From NCBI GenBank assembly GCA_038501195.1, contig JBBPUQ010000005.1:4216001-4280000 (forward strand): 64,000 nt of DNA, given 5' to 3'. Below, piece by piece: positions 3,251 to 48,242 of the stretch. Positions within the stretch are counted from its first letter, which is position 1. Each line of letters opens with the position of its first letter. The notes under the pieces were generated by a model. That model ran no database searches and had not been told where the DNA came from. It was given only the letters and a program-made list of their open reading frames with translations. Origin of the DNA: Nemania diffusa (Eukaryota > Ascomycota > Sordariomycetes > Xylariales > Xylariaceae). The position numbers and the translations under genes were made by a program.

Positions 3251-6200
3251 ATGAATAACTCAACTACAGCTGGTCTCCGAACAAGCGGCTCTAACCCCTC
3301 ACTTAAGCCTATCAGTAATCGCACAGGGTCGACAAGATCCATGAGCTCTCATCTTGGGAGCCTTCGTCATGTCTTGCTGAGGTCAACTTCCCAGAGACTG
3401 CAGTCGATGGAGAAAGATGTACCCGTGCCACCAGTCCTTACTCGTAATAACCCGATCTTGATAGACAAGGGCGCCGCCCAGAACTCGGGACTGCAAAATT
3501 CGGGGTCGCAAACTCCTACACTCGTTGAGGAGACTGCACATTCAGTCGGACCGGCAGCTTTAGACCCGCCCGGTGTTGATACCGTAGATGCTGCCAAACA
3601 GGAGATATCACATTCTTCAGTTGACTATTATGGCCAGTTCCATAGCCAACACTCACCAGTTTCGAAGGTTCGCCCTGCAGTATACGACGATGAAGGTGGA
3701 AAATCAAACCCTCAAGATGAACATCTTTCTGCCAATCCAATGCTTTCAGGAGAGGTGCATCCAGTAGAGGTTCATTCTCGACATAATCATACCAATACTC
3801 CCAAAGTCCGCCCATTCATGGAATCACCATCTGAAGAAGCTCCCCAGCTATCCGAGGCACGTAGAACGGTAGAAGAAGTCCCTGCATCAAATCTAGCCCA
3901 TCAAACAAATATACACGACAACGACGACGAATCACGTAAAATGGCTGTGTATTGGGGTTTTCTTCCTAGATTTAGAGAGGGGCAGAGCCAGCCACACTTG
4001 GGAGGTCAACAGCAGGATAGGCAATCCACGCCATCCTCAAATGGAGAATCTTCTTATCCATCTCAAGTCAATTCCCAAAGGTCATTAAAAAGTGTTGAAC
4101 ACCCCGCTACTCCTGAATCAGGCCCTAAGCAGGAAAATCTCCGCCAAAGACATGAAACTGACAAGACGGACTTGGGAGCTACCAAGGTCGATAGCGAGAG
4201 CCAAAATGTCCCTGGCAGTGTCGAGGAAGGGAGTGGAAGGTCGATTGCTCCAGTTCCGCCCACGTCCCTCTCAAGTTCCGCTTCTGGCAGTCTAAATAAA
4301 GGACAGAAGGCACCCCCTCAGAATCTGAATACTCGTCGAACAGGTAGATGGCTTCGGGGACTGTTGGGATTTTCGGAAGTAGATGTCTCTCCGACACTAA
4401 CGAAACTACCAGAGAAAACCTCTCCTCCACAAGAGTCGTGCGACGACGCTGATTCTATAGCGTCAAAGGTAACTACCTTCTCGTGCGAAAACATGGTAGA
4501 TAGAAAAGCCATGGACAACGCTATGCAGAGCCTGGAGAACAATATGACAGAAGCTTTGTCCTTGGCTAATAAAGCCGGACAGCGACAATATGGGCACGTG
4601 GACGATGGTAATCTCCCATTAAAGTCTACTTCAGAAGACTCTACAAATACGCCGAGCATCGACGAGAGTATCCGACGCGACTCGAGCGAGTATGGAGGAG
4701 TAATGTTTGTTGGCCGTCTACCGAATGGTATTACTGGGGATATAGACAACGTGGATAATGGAGGGGAAGCCCTACCTCTCGGATCAGTAAAACGCCAAGG
4801 ACTCATCAAAGCTGTCAAACGGGATGGTAAGGTTACGAGACCCCATTTCCTGAAACGAATGCGCAAATCTCCTAGCAAGACTAAGAATAGCCGTCATACG
4901 GTTGATGATGGCTGTATCCTACCTATGCCCCCGCGAGAGCTCGCTGTTGAGTCGGATTGTGTCTTCGCGGGAGTGGGTGCAGAGGACCGAACAATTACCA
5001 CTAAATCTTGTTCAGGAGAGGTCCCCAACAGCAGAGAAGTCCGAACATATATCCAAAACTTCCACGAACCACCGATCTGTGCCCGGGATAGCTCAAAAAT
5101 CCCTTACGAGGAAGAGGAGTCTACATGTGATGATAGCGATCAAGGCCCAAGAAACAGGCTATCTGAAATCCGACTCCAAGATGTGAGTGTCTGCAGCTTA
5201 GACGGTGGCACTTCTGATGAAGTCATTGAATTTTCCACTCAACATAGTACGAGCGAGAAAAGATTTCTGGATTTTCTTAAAGTTCCGAGAGCCTCGGAGC
5301 GTGTCAAAGATGAAAAGCCTGCCAAAGACCCTAAAAAGCCCAGGAGAAAGCCAGTAACCCCCACGAAGCACACCCATGGACTGAGGAATGTCAGCCTTCG
5401 AAATAGATCCCATGTCAGTATCGGTTCAGGCCAACGTTTCAGCTTGACAAGATCCGCTAGGCGACAGCCTACCATCGCTCGCGACTAGTCCCCGGCTCGA
5501 AAGCGGTTTGTCGCTGCCGTTGCCTGTACCAGCACTGCACTAATCGGCGTGTTGATCGGTATCTATGCTGGTCTTGTTCCCTCGATCCAATACTACATTG
5601 CCGACTTCCATCATTACGCGATACTAGGGAACGTTGGTCTGTATCTCGGGATGGCATTGCCAAACTTTTTCTGCTGGCCGCTGCCTTTACTACACGGACG
5701 AAAGCCCTACATCGTGGGCGGCCTCTGCGTAGCAATGCCCTTGCTCTTCCCCCAAGCCCTTGCGATTGGTACTCGAAGATCTCCAAATACCTGCGTTTGG
5801 AGGGTGGCTTTACTGCTTCCGCGAGCCTTGATGGGGCTTGTCCTGGGATTTGCGAATATGAACTTTCATTCTGTACTCACGGATTTATTCGGAGCTTCAT
5901 TGATGAGCAAGAACCCACACCAAGAAGTAGTTGATGAATATGATGTTAGACGACATGGCGGCGGCCTCGGGGTTTGGCTTGGCATCTGGACCTGGTGCTT
6001 CATAGGATCTCTCGGCGTTGGCTTCGTCGTGGGGGCTGTGGTGATCGAATACCTGCAACCCTCCTGGGGTTTGTACATCAGCATTGTCATTCTCGCTGTT
6101 GTTCTTCTATTGAATGTCCTCTGCCCGGAGGTTCGAAGGTCCGCCTGGCGACGGTCCGTTGCCGAAGTTCGGATGGGTGAGACTATATCACGGCGATTAG

Positions 6201-7941
6201 CGCGAGGCGAGGTCATGATGCATCGAGTACAGACTGGTCCAAGGTGGTGGGGCCAAGAGGTGTATCATGGGGTTGCCCTATCTCTTGAGATGCTCCGGCA
6301 ACCTGGCTTTACCATTATGGCTGTGTATTCCGCCTGGATATATGCGCAGATCGTTCTGGTGATAGTGGTAAGTGCCTCACAAACCTACTAAGTCTAACAC
6401 TGTGTGACTAAAAGCAATAGCTCTTAGGATCACTCACCTCGAAATCATATCGTCTTCGCTCCCCCTACGTCGGCGCTGTCGTATCATCTGTGGCGATCGG
6501 CGCCCTTGCCGCCATCCCCTTCCAAAAGGCCAATCTCTTTTCTCGGGCTCGGAATATGAGCCCGAAGTCAAATACCATGACCTTCGACAGAAAGATTACT
6601 TGGAGCTCTCGCCTTGTCCGCCGTTCCATATTCACGTTAGTCCTTCCTATTGCTGGTATCATATACACTGTAGTCTCTACAGGGCCACCTGTCCATGTAT
6701 TCCTCCCTTCCTTGTTTGCTGCCCTGATTGGGTTTCTTTCCTGTCTGGCTATATCGGAATGCAATGGCATGATGATGGAAGCTTGGGACTGTTCAGACCT
6801 CCAGCCTGGCATGACTGGCCGCTCAACGTCATCAAAGGACAGCCACAAACGCACCAACTACTCATCGTTCCCCCGCGTCACTGCCGGCTGGAATTTCATT
6901 CAGGGCCTTGGGTTCATATTTGCGGCAGGCGCAACTGCTCTCGGAGGCTCGGTCACTCGCCAGTTGGGCCAGAGAGCAGCGACAGGTGTGGTTGCAGGCA
7001 TCTTATTCATTCTTACCCTCCTACTCCTGTGCACCCTTATTCGGTTCAAGAGGGTCCAGATCATTCCGGACTGCACATGTTCAGAGATGGACAGGTGGAA
7101 CAAAGAACGTCGGGTCAGCCTACACAACTGGGCTGCTGCAATGGCTGAAGCCAAGGAAAAAGGCACTCAGGAATTAAACCAAATCCCTGAAGATGATGTC
7201 GGCTAGAGGCCCGCCATCTTGGGCAACCCCGTGGACAGATACCGTCGCATCAACATCCTCGAGCTGGGCTCGCTAACACGTTGGACTGAGATCCGTAAGA
7301 GAAATAGCTTGATCGATGAAAATGCTCATTTGAACAGACAGGCGGTGGCTTTGGCCCGTGATGAGCTTCAGCACAGTGCCCGCCACAGCGCAGAAAAAGT
7401 GATGCACAAAGTCAGCAAAAGAAGCCTCCAAAGCAAATGCAGCCATGAGAGCAGCGAGGACGAGCTTCTCGGTGCTCCCAAAGGAGAGTCTCACTCAGCA
7501 AGCTTACCTGTAAGCCCCTCGATAAGCCCCTCACCGGATGTATTGGAATTTCGGTTCGGTCAGTCTCAGCGCGAGCATGCGAAGAGCCGCGATTTGTCCG
7601 AAGTAGGGGATGGCTCGACAGATGGGGACTATATGCGCAGAAGAAGTCGGTCCCAGAACTTTACCTCGCAAACGCAGGATAGCACCGATTTCGAGACACA
7701 GCCAAGGCGTGGCCAGCGTTCGAGTATAGATGATGCTGCGATCCTGATGGAGGCACCTCGCCAAGGCATTGCTGCAGTTACGAGTTCGAGTAGCCAGGCC
7801 GGAGAAAAGATAGTAGTTGATGGTGTGGACGAGGTTGACCACGCGGAGAGCGCCCATAAGCACGAAGGTCACGTTGAGTCTGCGGACCAAGAGTTTGAAG
7901 ACATAAACCTGGGTGATTCTGAGAAGAAAACTTCGTCTTGA
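3251..7941 (+). CDS. MFS-like polytopic transporter interrupted by two TAG codons at Trp positions
   Basis: Exons 3251-6367 and 6421-7941 are separated by a 53-nt GTAAGT...TAG intron. I take ATG 3251 because the frame upstream offers only a GTG. Read through both stops, the product is 1,545 residues. Residues 1-745 are low-complexity, Ser/Pro/Lys-rich and predicted cytosolic. About residues 752-1250 hold roughly twelve hydrophobic segments of an MFS-like carrier, including the LPLLHGRKPYIVGG stretch and a GGGLGVWLGIWTWCF stretch. A charged tail ends at Ser1545. In-frame TAG codons replace codon 746 (after IARD, before SPARKRF) and codon 1301 (after DDVG, before RPAILGN). From memory, both positions are Trp in homologues. 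No frameshift, TAA or TGA interrupts the frame, and 18 other Trp codons are intact. Known biology: A-to-I editing of UAG to UGG restores such genes in Sordariomycete fruiting bodies. A young pseudogene is the alternative. The transported substrate is unknown; polyamine-type MFS is my best guess. Confidence 0.85.
5486..5488 (+). other. In-frame TAG stop 1 at an expected Trp codon (codon 746)
   Basis: The codon reads TAG between GAC (Asp) and TCC (Ser). The frame continues without any other defect for the whole membrane domain. TGG to TAG is a single G-to-A change, and UAG to UGG is the classic product of fungal A-to-I editing (U at -1, G at +1). Hand folding places A5487 in the apical loop of an imperfect hairpin: 5460-5466 with 5509-5515 outside, 5476-5479 with 5502-5505 inside. 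It lies just before the first membrane segment, so unedited mRNA would encode only the soluble N-terminal region. Confidence 0.85.
7190..7220 (+). promoter_or_regulatory. Hairpin presenting TAG stop 2 (codon 1301) in a 5-nt loop
   Basis: TAG 7204-7206 lies between GGC (Gly) and AGG (Arg), in frame with the C-terminal tail. Pairing is direct: 7201-7203 (GGC) with 7209-7211 (GCC) leaves loop TAGAG; a C-C mismatch follows, then 7198-7199 with 7213-7214. Bases 7196-7197 are bulged, and 7190-7195 (AAGATG) pairs with 7215-7220 (CATCTT). A7205 is thus the second base of the loop. Hairpin loops with U before the target A are the favoured context of fungal A-to-I mRNA editing. The fold was done by hand; its energy was not computed. 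Confidence 0.7.
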
Positions 7942-37597: not shown

Positions 37598-39967
37598 TTA
37601 GTTGATCTGGTCCGATGTCCGTTTGATACCATTGCTTCCGCAGCCTCCGCGGAACTGTCCGAGGAGTTTGCCGAGGTTGGGCACGTCAAGGCCCTTCCAG
37701 CCTCTGCCGTCCTGCTCGCGCTCTCCGATGTCAATGACGGCGCCTACTAGGCCTTTGGTGATCTCGTCATCGACAACGCTGTCGCGCTGATATGCCGGGT
37801 GCTTGGCCACGTAGTGCCGGATCCATTTCGCTGCTGTCCATAGCTCGCCGCTCGCGCGTTTGCGGATGAGATCCAGGTACGTGGAGAGCTCACAGCGCGT
37901 TTCCACGTCCATGTTCACCGAGTCGAGGTAGCTCTCCACGATGGGGATGAGACCGGGGAAGTCGTGCTCTTCCGACTTGGACCCGTTGATCACTTCGTCG
38001 ACTGTCATTAGCGCATATTCATCCTCCACCGGGCTGATAGGAGTAGCGGGCCGGCTGGTCACTGGCGAGTTCGCGTTTGATCCTACGGTGCTCCGGGGCG
38101 TGCGGTTGGGGAACGGGTTCTTTCGGAAGTAGAACTTCTTCTCTAGCACCGCGTCTCGTGCGTGCGCCGTCTCCATATTATCATCGACTTTGACGATGGG
38201 AATGTAGAAGTTCAAATCGAAGCTCAGGATGGCTCGCGTGATCAGTATCATAAAGACGGAAAACGCGGCATTCTCGAAATCCGTGATTTGAATTTCCATG
38301 GGTCGAAACTCGACGCGCCAACCAATATCCGACCCTGCCGGGGGAGGCTTAAATCGCATATGCTGCCAATTAGTACTTTGCAGATTCTCAAAATGATCAG
38401 TCTTGGTTAGGTCTAGCTCCTCTACGTCTTCGTTAAAGATCACGATAGGATCGCGGATGAACAAGTGTGCAAAGTGCGTAGCGAGTAGGTCGTCCATGCC
38501 CCCCTCGACAAGTTGTGCCTTTATGGATTCATCAACGACGAGATTAGGGTAGAAGTATTCAGGCCGAAGGCGTGGATCAGTACTGATATAAGTCGAGTTT
38601 GACGCATATCGAGATTTGGGAATTCGCCACCGGCTGTTTTTCAGGGGCTGGTGGTTGTCAGCTGGTAGAACTCACGAATCGTCGTGAAATCTTTACTCAC
38701 CTTTTCCCCAAGCTCTTCAGCAGTTCGGTCATCAACGGCTCGGCTGATCTGGTTCCAGCGGACGTCTGTATCTGCTAGAAAACCTTTATATATGGGAGTG
38801 GCGGCTGTTAAGGCTAACATAATGGGACCGAGTGGGCTAAGTTGATCATACATCTTTCTGCCCTCCGTGATGTTTTTCGCCTGTAACGTGATTTGCAGGC
38901 AACAACTTCCCATACCAAATGCCATGGCGTCCATGTGGATGAAGTTGTCCGGAGCCGCTCCATTTCTGACATCGTCATCCTCCGGCCAGTTATGAAGGTC
39001 ATAGTTGACCGTGGGGTCCTTCCAAGGATTTGGTGTTTTCTCATCATGGAAAACAGGGACATTCACCTCGACTTTCCTTCCTCGTCGGAGGCGAATATTA
39101 GCGGCTAGCGTGGGAAAGCGGATATGAGGGTTAGCAATCTCGTCGGGAACAAATTGGGACCGAAGCTTAGGTCCGGACGGGGGATAGTAAGGATCGGTAA
39201 ATACTCCCGGAACACCAAGGCGGGGGAAAGTTGTAAGTGTGATGGGGTATTCTTCACTTTTCATGTGTTCCTTGGCGATCTTTCTCCTGGGTTTTGTTCA
39301 GCTTATATCTCGTAAACACTCATGGTGAGTAAAATCTACCTCGTCTTCATATCAGACTCAACTTCTAACAGCTCTTTGAATCCGATCCCCCAAGGCTTTC
39401 CAGGGGTCGCCTCGAGCATGAATCTACCAAATTCGGGGTGAAATACCGGCAGGGGGTTTGAATTCTGGACCTTGACATCCTGGAGGTCAGGGACGCCTCC
39501 GCCCTTTGCCGACAGCTCTTCATCGGCCGCTAGTGCTGTCAATATGTCGGCTTGCCGAAGCGACAGCAGCACGCTCGGGGCGTCTTTGGAATATTGAACA
39601 ACGAGATATTCGACCTATCGGGGAGCGGGTCAGTTGTGAGTAAGGTCCAGGCCACGAGGAGAAATGGCGTCAAATCACCTCATCGCCCCAGAGCATGGCA
39701 TCGCTCTCCTTATGCTTTGCTTTATTCCATATTTCCAGCAATTGCTACGTCCCAAATTAGCCTCGTGGCTTAGCAGATGGCGGGCCGTTTAATGCCACAA
39801 TGGTACTGTACCTTGATACCCCATTCTCTGACTTTTTGCGCATGCTTCTGCGCATCTGACCAATCAAGGGCAGTGCCCACCGCTCTGTAAGGTGCGGTTA
39901 GCGAAGGTCTGGAACATGACAGAGGGTTTCTTGTCTTTTAAAACCGGCCAACATACAAGAGTCCCAT
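37598..39967 (-). CDS. gsh1: Glutamate-cysteine ligase (gamma-glutamylcysteine synthetase), catalytic subunit
   Basis: Coding order on the minus strand is 39957-39967, 39812-39884, 39679-39744, 39340-39614, 38701-39286 and 37598-38647, joining to 686 residues. The enzyme joins L-glutamate and L-cysteine using ATP, the first and rate-limiting step of glutathione synthesis in the cytosol. The MGLLAVGTALDWSDA start, a WGDEVEY motif near residue 50, MAFGMGSCCLQITLQA about 260-277, LATHFAHLFIRDP about 392-404 and GWRVEFRPMEIQ about 446-457 are hallmarks of eukaryotic GCS, and the length is normal. The first coding exon is only 11 nt (M-G-L-L split by the intron). An apparent stop after TTTSP near 38642 is intronic: GTGAGT at 38700 to CAG at 38648 removes it and restores GEK-PLKNSR. 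Confidence 0.95.
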
Positions 39968-41717: not shown

Positions 41718-43772
41718 TTATGCGTCCTTCTGGGCTTTCTCATCCGCACCCGTAGAAGAGCCGTCTTTCGATGAAACAGGTGCACTTTCATCCGCATAGT
41801 CATGCCCCATGATGACATGGAATTTCTAGAATTGACATCATGGTAAGTGTCTGCATTCCAATTTGCATACTCGGGGTTACTTACGGGTCCTTCGAACGTC
41901 TTGCCATACAAGAACCAGTACGTCCCGATCAAAATTAGGAAGATCCCTATCACGGCTGTGACATAATCTACCCAAGTGGTTAGATTTGAAGCTTGGTATC
42001 TCATTAAGGGGGGGTCTTACTCATGTTTTTGCTCGTAGCAGGGAGCGAGGCAGGGAACGTGAAGAACTAAAAGTCGGGAATGAGTTCCTCATTCACGTTT
42101 GATACAGCGGTCTCTGGAGGCCAGACGGGACACTTACCACAGACGTGACGACCACAAAGATCGCTGACACCCAGTTGATAAACCAACCCCACTTACCGAG
42201 CGCAAAGGGTGTCTCTTCAGTCTGCCACTCCTTGAGAACGCCACGGCCACGGATGAGCAGCGCGATGACGGGGAACACGTACGAGACGTTGAGGAAGATG
42301 GTGCAGCTGGAGACGTAGGCGCCAAACGCGACCGAAGGGCCCAGGTACAGCAGCCCAAAGAGAGCGTTGAACACGAACGTAAGCATGATTGTTCGGACTG
42401 GCACATTCAGGCCCGGGGTGATGTGGGCAAAGCTAGTTGATAAGTCAGCTCCCGCTGAGGCACGGTTTGAACTTGGAGCGAGTACTTACTAGTTGGGATA
42501 AACGACGCCCTTGTCACGCGCCATGGAGTACAGCAATCTGCTCGTACTCGTTATGCACCCATTTGTGCCGTTCACAAAGCACACGGCGAGCGCGAGGGTT
42601 AATATCGTCGCGGCCGCGCGGCTGCCCGTCGCCTGGAGGATGAGCTCCGCAATCGGCATGTTCGTCGGCGTGCTCAACACCCTGGTAGGGTCTGTGATGC
42701 AGTATAGGATGACGAGGATGAAGGCAAGTCCGCTAGTCGCCCCGTTAGCGATGATATCAGATGGATCGCACGTCTGCGTATAACTCACGTTACTCCGCCC
42801 ACGCCCACAGCGTAAAGGATCGCGCGCGGGGCATCGATGGCTGGGGTCGGCATCTCCTCCGTCATGTGGAGCGCCGCGTCGAATCCGATGAGCGACAGCG
42901 CGGACTGCAGCAAGCCCAGGATCCAGGCCAGTCCGTCCGGCCAGCCCGTGCCGTTCTGGAAATCGGCGAAGACGAAGTGCGCATCGTTCTTGTCCGAAGT
43001 GGCGAGGAGCACGATGCTGATTACGATGACGGCGAGGACGGACCAGTACAAGGCCGCGTCGTTCCAGCGGCCAAGAATTCTGTTGCCCCAGATGTTCGCC
43101 CCTGTCGTGAAGGTGAGGATGGCTAGGAAAATCAGATATGTCGCCCATTGCTTAATTTGGTATGTTCCATTCGAGGCAAGGACAGCGGCCGCTTGTATGA
43201 ATTGTGCTGTGGCCATTATCAGTCAACGGACAAAAGAGGACTCCGTTCGGGTATCAGCCTCACCGCAAAAGAACCCTTCTGTTGTCACTAATGTGAGCCA
43301 GCCTGCAATATTGGTCCAGCCGACCCAAAAGCTCTACAAAGCAGCGATTAGTCCTCGGGCGAACCGGGCTTCGTTACGGTGACATTAAGGGGCCGCACCA
43401 TGGATTTCTTCCATTCTTGCGTACATAGCGCATATACGAAGTGATACTGTCCTCCCGCTGTCGGCCATATCGCGGCCATCTCACCAAGACTAGCTGCCAG
43501 TGCAAAATTGCACAGGACACAGAAGATGAAGCCATATAGGAACGATACGGATCCACCGGAGGGCAAGACAAGGCCGATGGAGCCAGCAAGTGCTATCCAG
43601 GTGCTAAACAGACAGTATCAGCATCAGAGTAAGGAATAGCCTCCTTGGCAGTGACGGGGACTCACTTTAGAATCGCGAATGTCAACGCGACCATAGTCAG
43701 CCGCGACAGGCGAGGCTGCAGACGGCCTTCTCCAGCGGTACCCGCTGTCGAGGATCTCCGTAGGGATGCCAT
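41718..43772 (-). CDS. APC-superfamily permease (amino acid/GABA/choline type)
   Basis: Nine exons on the minus strand: 43666-43772, 43399-43603, 43264-43333, 42789-43206, 42490-42732, 42138-42432, 42021-42066, 41885-41967 and 41718-41825. They give 524 residues with about twelve membrane segments. The frame is kept over all eight short introns (53-71 nt). Recognisable stretches are NTWIALAGSIGLVLPSGG in the first helix region, LGEMAAIWPTAGGQYHF, SFWVGWTNIAGW and GFDAALHMTEEMPTPA, which are typical of fungal GABA, choline and amino-acid permeases of the APC superfamily in the plasma membrane. The tail KAQKDA is hydrophilic. The exact substrate cannot be told. ATG 43772 gives a short N-terminus; an additional upstream exon is possible. 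The neighbouring nitrilase and Zn2Cys6 factor suggest a link to nitrogen use, which is inference. Confidence 0.9.
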
Positions 43773-46529: not shown

Positions 46530-48242
46530 TTAGATGAACCAAGGTGAGGTTAGATTGAGATCAATGGTGTCCCACCACTTCAGACTACCAGTCCGGCCAG
46601 AGTCTGCTTGGAGGTCTTGTTGTTTCCAGAACGATTCGATGATATGTCTGAGAACAAATACGTTTCCAATATGTCTCTCCTCGTCCATACGATCAAGAGT
46701 TCGAAGAATGCTAATTCTCTGATCGTCGGTTTCGGTCTCGCAGCCAATGACGAAGAGTGGCCACGGGCTAGTACAGACTTCTAAGCTGCTCAGAACCTGC
46801 AAAGCTTGTTGTAGATAGGCTGTTTTAATGTCCTGGGAAGGCTCAGTGCTGCCAACTCTATGAAGATAGAGGAAGGTAGCGATCCGGTATAGCTCAGCCG
46901 TAGCCAATGTCCTAATACGGTCGTGCTGGGATAGATATTCCTCATGCCTTGGATCCAGTCGTTGGGTCAATAAAGCAAGCTTACTCTCCAATGCCTTATA
47001 CTCAATAGCCCTATTAGACTTTTCTTGATCAGGCGACGTCGTAGGATCCCCACATAACTCAATAGCGCGCCATCTATTGACGCGACTAATAATCTCCATA
47101 ACCTCGACAGAACACCCTAGGGAGCCAATGATCTGCTAAGTGGTTAGTTTAAAAAGCTTGCGGGGAATAGTTCACATCACTATACCATTGAAGTATCGAA
47201 ACGGGTGTCCCGTAAAAACCGGAGCGAAGCGGGGCCTTGAGGCCATTGGTTAAGCGGTTGGCTGAAACCACCGAGGACTTCATGGTATAAAAACCACGTG
47301 TAGAGAAAGCTGTAAGCTAGCTGACCACCGTGTTTTCTAGCTAGTTGGGAGAGAATCTTCTGAGCTCCATATAGATGTACACTCCAATTACCTTCAGTTT
47401 CGTCAAAAACCTTTGAACTGGCTGTTAGTTCAATTGTAGTAATACGCTTTAAGGTTGTATCTTACATTGTACACGCAGAGCATCATGGAGGTTGCTAGTT
47501 GTGTTTCCGTAGTACCAAATGACTCAGTGGATAATGAAGACGACAGTGATCTAATTGCTTCAGCCTTGTAGGAGAAGGCGTGCTCAGCCCCCCATAAATG
47601 GAATGCGGAAACAGCTAATATCGCATTCCGAAGACCGTGAGAAGCCTTACCGCCACTCGATAGTGCCATAGGGATAAGATCATCTCGGAATCCGTTGTTA
47701 ATATTGATGGTGGAGATCATCCGTGATAGTTTTTCGTGGTCTGCGAAATAAATTAGAGAGTTGAAGGGTCAGTGAGGGCGTTGCGAGGAGCCATACAATA
47801 ACTCAGAAGAACCGAGTCTCGTTCGTGGAATCTCGGGAGGATTGGGATACTCCTAGCCGGTCGCGGTTGGCAGCGAAAAAGTAACAGCTCGTTGAGCACC
47901 ATCAGCCCCTTGCCGCTGTGCATGAGGTCTTCATAGGTCATATTTAGGAACTGTTTCCCATAGTGCGCAGGGTTGTGAGGGCTATAATGCAGTGCTCGGT
48001 CTGGGATACGGCTTCCTCTGCGCCGGCCGTCCGGTTGATCCGGCCACGCGAGACGGATCCCATAGCCTAAACACTCTCTGCCGGTGCGAAGACAGTTATT
48101 ACAAGCCGGAAAGCCGCGATCACATCCTATCTTCCGCTCTTGAACACGCGACGGTGAGTGGGTCTATTCAGTCTCAAGGGAGAGAACATGCTGACTTACT
48201 CTTGCAAGTCCAACAGCCTTGTGTCCGTCTTACGGTTTCCAT
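46530..48242 (-). CDS. Zn2Cys6 transcription factor with fungal-specific regulatory domain
   Basis: Minus-strand exons are 48200-48242, 47797-48138, 47466-47740, 47186-47410 and 46530-47132, with introns of 53-61 nt, giving 495 residues. The N-terminal binuclear cluster is complete: C10-X2-C13-X6-C20-X6-C27-X2-C30-X6-C37 (GCWTCKKRKIGCDRGFPAC then NNC). It is split by the first intron between Lys14 and the next residue. The rest resembles the fungal-specific transcription factor domain (Fungal_trans_2 type): LLSYYHEKLSRMISTI, AILAVSAFHLWG, MMLCVYN and a C-terminal WPLFVIGCETETDDQR block. It is expected to be nuclear, binding CGG-type sites. The target is unknown; the nearby nitrilase and permease are candidates by position only. 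Confidence 0.9.

Follow-up and report, generated by a model that had tools for sequence, protein, structure and literature searches.

Locus and reading frame

The window analysed here is a 64,000-nucleotide stretch of the Nemania diffusa genome (GenBank assembly GCA_038501195.1, contig JBBPUQ010000005.1, positions 4,216,001 to 4,280,000 of the forward strand). Near its start, at window positions 3251–7941 on the plus strand, lies a transporter gene whose single coding frame is interrupted solely by two TAG codons, referred to below as site 1 and site 2. The gene comprises two exons joined across one 53-nt intron, and the intron and the two TAGs divide it into four open pieces:

3251..5485, plus strand: N-terminal part of exon 1, 745 codons, 0 hydrophobic segments; the ATG agrees with the Hypoxylon argillaceum model
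5414..5488, plus strand: rival intron candidate, an in-frame 75-nt GTCAGT...CTAG stretch with no CTRAY branch motif
5486..5488, plus strand: site 1, codon 746, an in-frame TAG (A at 5487) in place of the conserved Trp in IARD-W-SPxRKRF
5489..6367, plus strand: N-terminal half of the MFS-like transporter domain (293 codons; 7 hydrophobic segments)
6368..6420, plus strand: intron, 53 nt, GTAAGT...AATAG, phase 0
6421..7203, plus strand: C-terminal half of this domain (261 codons; 5 hydrophobic segments)
7201..7211, plus strand: predicted RNA hairpin GGCU-AGA-GGCC, with the site 2 A as first loop base
7204..7206, plus strand: site 2, in-frame TAG (A at 7205), codon 1301, at the conserved Trp preceding RPxIxGNP; exact end of 38 relatives' models
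7207..7941, plus strand: C-terminal tail, 244 codons, then TGA; conserved among stop-bearing relatives

Upstream of the final TGA (7939–7941) the frame contains no TAA, no TGA and no frameshift, and each piece carries 0 stops in the coding frame versus 3 to 55 in the other five frames. Besides the two TAG positions, 18 Trp codons are intact. The original prediction, made from the letters of this stretch, had given the same coordinates, codon numbers, exon count and single frame; all of these hold, and the frame and codon counts confirm its lack of other lesions and its tally of intact Trp codons. If two nonsense changes had struck at random, both would be TGG-to-TAG in 0.1 to 0.7% of cases (transition weights 1 to 4). 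The gene is single-copy in the 55.6-Mb genome by both DNA and protein search.

Protein architecture and relationship to AMD1

Hydrophobic segments number 0, 7, 5 and 0 across the four pieces, and the predicted architecture is a transporter of about 12 segments flanked by a soluble head and a soluble tail. When the pieces were scanned separately, the first piece past site 1 gave a weak MFS_1 match (E 1.3e-4, below the curated cut-off) and the three remaining pieces gave no credible Pfam family. The full models of H. argillaceum and Nemania NC0429 (2/2) likewise returned no Pfam match at E 0.01. In protein searches, PF07690 is annotated on many homologues, and the source records name the family 'polyamine transport protein' or MFS. 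A PDB search with one piece returned no match.

Protein searches listed the best 120 of 1092 and the best 120 of 589 matches, and all counts given here refer to listed models. Among the best 120 of 1092, the top matches are Nemania bipapillata (96%) and H. argillaceum (95%), followed by Xylaria and other Nemania. A tree of the domain between the stops groups the gene with H. argillaceum (99% identity), within Nemania and Xylaria, so that its source belongs to Xylariaceae and is no Fusarium. The record named Hypoxylon argillaceum (P0115) clusters with Nemania, far from other Hypoxylon models, and its name may be outdated or the strain misnamed.

A Fusarium pseudograminearum model (P0264) carries IARDW at 610–613 and MFS_1 at 627–1029 (below the curated cut-off), has Trp at both sites, and is 73, 61 and 38% identical to the three pieces past site 1. 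FGRRES_10094, the AMD1 gene of F. graminearum, was absent under its own name among the best 120 of 589 protein matches. Since the gene is single-copy and shares the architecture of the Fusarium gene, it is very probably the AMD1 orthologue, as judged by comparison with P0264 rather than with FGRRES_10094 directly. Amd1 of F. graminearum is reported as a protein of 1386 residues with an MFS domain at 618–840 and 11 helices, whose UAG at codon 211 is edited in 97.6% of perithecial transcripts and whose loss impairs ascospore discharge (PMC5496914). Late-sexual expression, location at the ascus membrane and the role in discharge are likewise published for F. graminearum. Our gene resembles AMD1 in having an MFS domain behind a long head, an in-frame UAG and a comparable length (1545 codons here), and the MFS_1 match of P0264 lies near the domain reported for Amd1.

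Site 1 probably recurs as TAG in relatives

Among 220 long homologous models, site 1 is Trp in 164, 33 models start downstream, 8 are unclear and 15 place an intron border that points to TAG. In a first set of 113 short models, 47 carry the motif with Trp (the search pattern itself required Trp), and by eye no non-Trp residue was seen in any model reaching site 1. Trp also stands at site 2 in 145 of the 220 models, so that the alignment bears out, at both positions, the Trp that the original prediction had expected.

The 15 intron borders take two forms. Four models read IARD-Y or ARD-Y and then jump, which means that the codon begins TA and, given a GT donor, continues GT (TA + GT donor). The other 11 resume directly past the codon, which therefore ends in AG, given an AG acceptor (xAG). 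These models come from H. argillaceum, three Nemania, Xylaria venustula, Dactylonectria estremocensis, two Trichoderma, and from Fusarium kuroshium, F. sarcochroum, F. zealandicum, F. albosuccineum, F. fujikuroi and, twice, F. oxysporum. On a 200-row tree, site 1 counts as TAG in 16 of 161 scored rows, the N. diffusa gene included, and requires at least nine changes. Rows with at least 380 core residues entered the trees; 21 of the 220 models, including N. bipapillata, were thereby left out.

Such borders raise the question of splicing, in which the stops would be removed as parts of small in-frame introns by alternative splicing. At site 1 the 75-nt GTCAGT...CTAG stretch finishes exactly at the stop, and its counterpart is removed in relatives' models (RSH|SPxRK); at site 2 the CTRAY motif occurs in 4 of 8 listed candidate introns. 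For FgBUD14, editing and splicing have both been reported (PMC11156358). The models of different species, however, use two incompatible introns at site 1, one with the TAG as acceptor and the other with TA|GT as donor, and the use of two such introns to one end in separate species casts doubt on both. Moreover, models with Trp at the site conserve the excised peptide, CTRAY is missing from all 7 in-frame candidates (40–200 nt) at site 1, and none of the 16 in-frame candidates at site 2 matches more than one of three donor letters. We therefore regard splicing as quite improbable, and the relatives' introns at site 1 appear to be false.

Introns introduced by annotation to avoid edited UAGs have been described by Liu et al., who report 69 F. 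graminearum genes with UAGs hidden inside wrongly annotated introns (PMC4817773). PUK1 and the other 69 PUK1-like genes of that study thus share with our gene a UAG within the coding sequence that wrong introns conceal. PUK1 also carries two stops; its stops are tandem, however, whereas those described here lie 555 codons apart. Editing was observed in the PUK1-like genes, whereas the present case is known from DNA and protein sequences.

Site 2 is a shared end of models with a conserved tail beyond it

The pattern at site 2 differs. Apart from the Trp-bearing models, 38 of the 220 end exactly before the codon, 5 resume exactly past it (acceptor xAG) and 11 jump a short surrounding stretch; the remaining models end elsewhere or are unclear. 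The 38 ending models comprise 37 assigned by script and P0223 assigned by hand, a one-residue gap having placed it in the NA class, and P0182, P0190, P0196 and P0204 (skip or unclear by script) are excluded from the site 2 counts.

On a 72-row xylarialean tree (LG+G4), site 2 is non-Trp in 54 of 70 scored rows, 11 of which merely avoid the site, with at least six changes. The Hypoxylon–Daldinia clade (22 rows, support 100/100) contains 21 non-Trp rows and one nested Trp (Hypoxylon FL0543). The Xylaria–Nemania clade (31 rows, support only 92/60) contains 28 non-Trp rows and three nested Trp, in X. arbuscula F4678, Nemania NC0429 and P0187. Biscogniauxia, Camillea and Anthostomella models likewise end at site 2. 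This tree is compatible both with a single ancient stop common to all and with independent ancient stops in each family. CHE1 of Fusarium also has a premature stop conserved among related species (PMC11169179); it concerns closely related Fusarium species and is edited in hyphae, whereas site 2 spans families.

Five models (P0142, P0163, P0167, P0171 and P0175, from Biscogniauxia, Hypoxylon FL0890, Daldinia FL1419 and Camillea) are only 780–790 residues long and start near codon 530–550, as might be expected if the N-terminal regions of these species held more stops.

The tail beyond site 2 was compared in 16 stop-bearing relatives whose models continue. It aligns to the N. diffusa tail in all of them, and 14 of the 16 reach within 15 residues of its end. 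Tail identity at the protein level exceeds that of the N-terminal head in 13 of the 15 relatives measurable for both and falls 3 to 5 points below it in the remaining two. The first 46 tail residues match several Trichoderma models at 65 to 67%. Conservation of the tail thus seems about equal to that of the plainly coding head, and the similar identities suggest that head and tail evolve alike despite the intervening stop. The preserved downstream coding claimed in the original prediction is consequently seen in two ways, as an open frame past both stops and as protein-level conservation of the tail.

These data bear on the possibility that only site 1 is corrected and that site 2 is the normal end of the protein, with the tail rarely used (stop-loss editing) or a remnant. 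The exact finish of 38 models from many species at this codon would fit such an arrangement, and stop-loss editing is documented in F. graminearum, with 323 events reported (PMC4817773). In stop-bearing relatives, however, the tail keeps an open frame and roughly the conservation level of the N-terminal region, the motif downstream of site 2 is common to Hypocreales, and nested species carry Trp at the site; we consider a normal end at site 2 very unlikely.

A recently broken, decaying gene would also account for two stops within one frame. Against decay, both stops recur in other species, the gene shows no further lesion, coding is conserved downstream and there is no signature of repeat-induced point mutation (RIP). 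RIP itself was rejected: the TpA/ApT ratio of the gene is 0.69 and (CpA+TpG)/(ApC+GpT) is 1.26, opposite to the RIP signature by the usual thresholds for these ratios, and there is one gene copy. Decay had been judged unlikely at the outset, and the low chance of two TGG-to-TAG changes together with the recurrence in relatives makes it, in our estimate, scarcely credible.

RNA context of the two stops

Editing sites in F. graminearum show neighbour preferences (PMC9600606), against which both stops were scored. The site 2 A has 5 of 6 preferred neighbours, a score of at least 5 being reached by 39 of the 1188 As of the coding sequence, and is the first base in the loop of the GGCU-AGA-GGCC hairpin when folded with 15, 20 or 30 nt of flank. 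The site 1 A is mostly unpaired (0.78 at 30 nt); folding puts it in a hairpin loop only at 15 nt of flank, and that hairpin is weak (−2.2 kcal/mol). A hairpin loop and preferred neighbours are a tendency of edited sites, not a rule.

Editing machinery and genome-wide context

In F. graminearum, Ame1 needs MV500–501 to bind Tad3. The N. diffusa genome contains five DUF726 matches, read as four genes. One of them (G000:C4:1784610-1785668, minus strand) is Ame1-like and carries MV at the Tad3-contact column, in contrast to SQ, RN and LD in the paralogues; the column, located from its distance to the GYxLG motif, differs by one residue from the published numbering. The genome therefore appears to carry an Ame1-like gene with the Sordariomycete MV pair, although its presence alone does not show editing. 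In the same gene, GYGLG replaces the serine motif GYSLG that is kept in the three paralogues.

The deaminase family PF00383 has nine matches, two with one internal stop, among which Tad2 and Tad3 were not distinguished. DNA methylase genes (PF00145, the family of RID), considered as further stop-bearing cases, carry 0 internal stops in 6/6 matches.

Interruptions of high-scoring frames were also counted in a 264-kb sample (the 64-kb window plus 20 stretches of 10 kb), using the strictest coding score. Site 2 is among the seven TAGs of this sample; site 1 lies outside the 25 listed interruptions. Another high-scoring candidate with two TAGs (L018) was dropped, as Pfam assigned it to no family (best E 0.18) and it looked, on inspection, like the antisense of another gene.

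A-to-I editing as the most likely explanation

The placement of both stops at Trp codons, the conserved coding downstream, the recurrent exchange of stop and Trp and the editing published for the orthologue are best explained by mRNA editing. We consider it likely, and hold this view with good confidence, that both Trp-position stops of this single-copy AMD1-like gene are converted from UAG to UGG by A-to-I editing in fruiting bodies. The candidacy for editing put forward in the original prediction is thereby strengthened by Trp in homologues, by relatives' model ends or TAG-pointing intron borders at the same two codons and by the AMD1 precedent, as well as by downstream conservation. UAG at codons 746 and 1301 would be decoded as Trp after modification by the Tad2–Tad3–Ame1 complex known from F. 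graminearum. Unedited mRNA would halt translation at site 1 and yield only the 745-residue head; site 1 could thus act as an on/off switch, since the unedited product has no membrane segment. With site 1 edited alone, a complete transporter of about 12 hydrophobic segments would be made without its conserved tail, and with both sites edited the full 1545-residue protein. The two stops are thus predicted to differ in effect as they do in spread, site 1 removing the whole transporter domain and site 2 the tail only. The product may function in ascus maturation and ascospore discharge, and the editing itself and its sexual-stage timing are, like this role, what we infer for N. diffusa.

Translational readthrough of UAG, through context or a suppressor tRNA and with the RNA unchanged, would equally permit UAG at these codons. 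It leaves the placement of the stops at Trp codons unexplained, and we know of no UAG readthrough that inserts Trp; this explanation is highly improbable.

Several observations weigh against editing. In N. bipapillata, a close relative, site 1 is Trp, and P0196 (Xylariaceae FL0255, on a long branch) has Asn at site 2. Acceptor-class models at either site reveal only the final AG of the codon, and whether the 38 ending models stop at TAG, TAA or TGA is unreadable from proteins. The site 1 A has only 3 of 6 preferred neighbours by the F. graminearum scale and sits within an interior loop with 20, 30 or 50 nt of flank; the site 2 A is inside a stem with 50 nt of flank. As 20 of the 45 UAGs in any frame of the mRNA fall within hairpin loops, the loop at site 2 is weak evidence. 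The best-scoring in-frame interruptions of the 264-kb sample, which is small and noisy, were 7 TAG, 4 TAA and 2 TGA, with no clear TAG excess. The UAG published for AMD1 is at codon 211, that is, at neither of the two codons described here. Finally, Teichert et al. state that genes of the PUK1-like edited kind seldom undergo editing in Sordaria, and that an individual site need not be conserved (PMC5381528).

Taking the two sites together, we lean slightly towards a broader model, in which editing would make Trp and stop interchangeable in AMD1 DNA. The IARDW codon would have flipped repeatedly to TAG across Sordariomycetes, and the site 2 stop would be ancestral to Hypoxylaceae and Xylariaceae, kept open by editing with occasional returns to Trp; it would serve to switch, during development, between a transporter lacking the tail and the complete one.

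Among the papers covered, full-text literature searches listed no report of A-to-I mRNA editing in Xylariales; a paper of 2024 describes such editing as a trait common to the entire class (PMC11087585). The present analysis predicts it for Xylariales. New here are the recurrent TAG inferred at site 1, the shared model ends at site 2 with a conserved tail, and the Ame1-like gene. A stop so widely shared means that comparing species with stop and with Trp can test why fungi keep editable stops, as neutral repair or as a useful switch. The data also suggest truncation or false splicing in dozens of the public models for this transporter.

Other genes in the window

Four further features were noted in the window:

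37598–39297, minus strand: glutamate-cysteine ligase gene, two exonic frames, PF03074
52086–55538, plus strand: open frame of 1150 codons with abundant FG and serine, resembling a nucleoporin; Pfam gave no family at E 0.01
46530–47135, minus strand: fragment of a Fungal_trans_2 transcription factor
42489–43151, minus strand: exon of an amino acid permease

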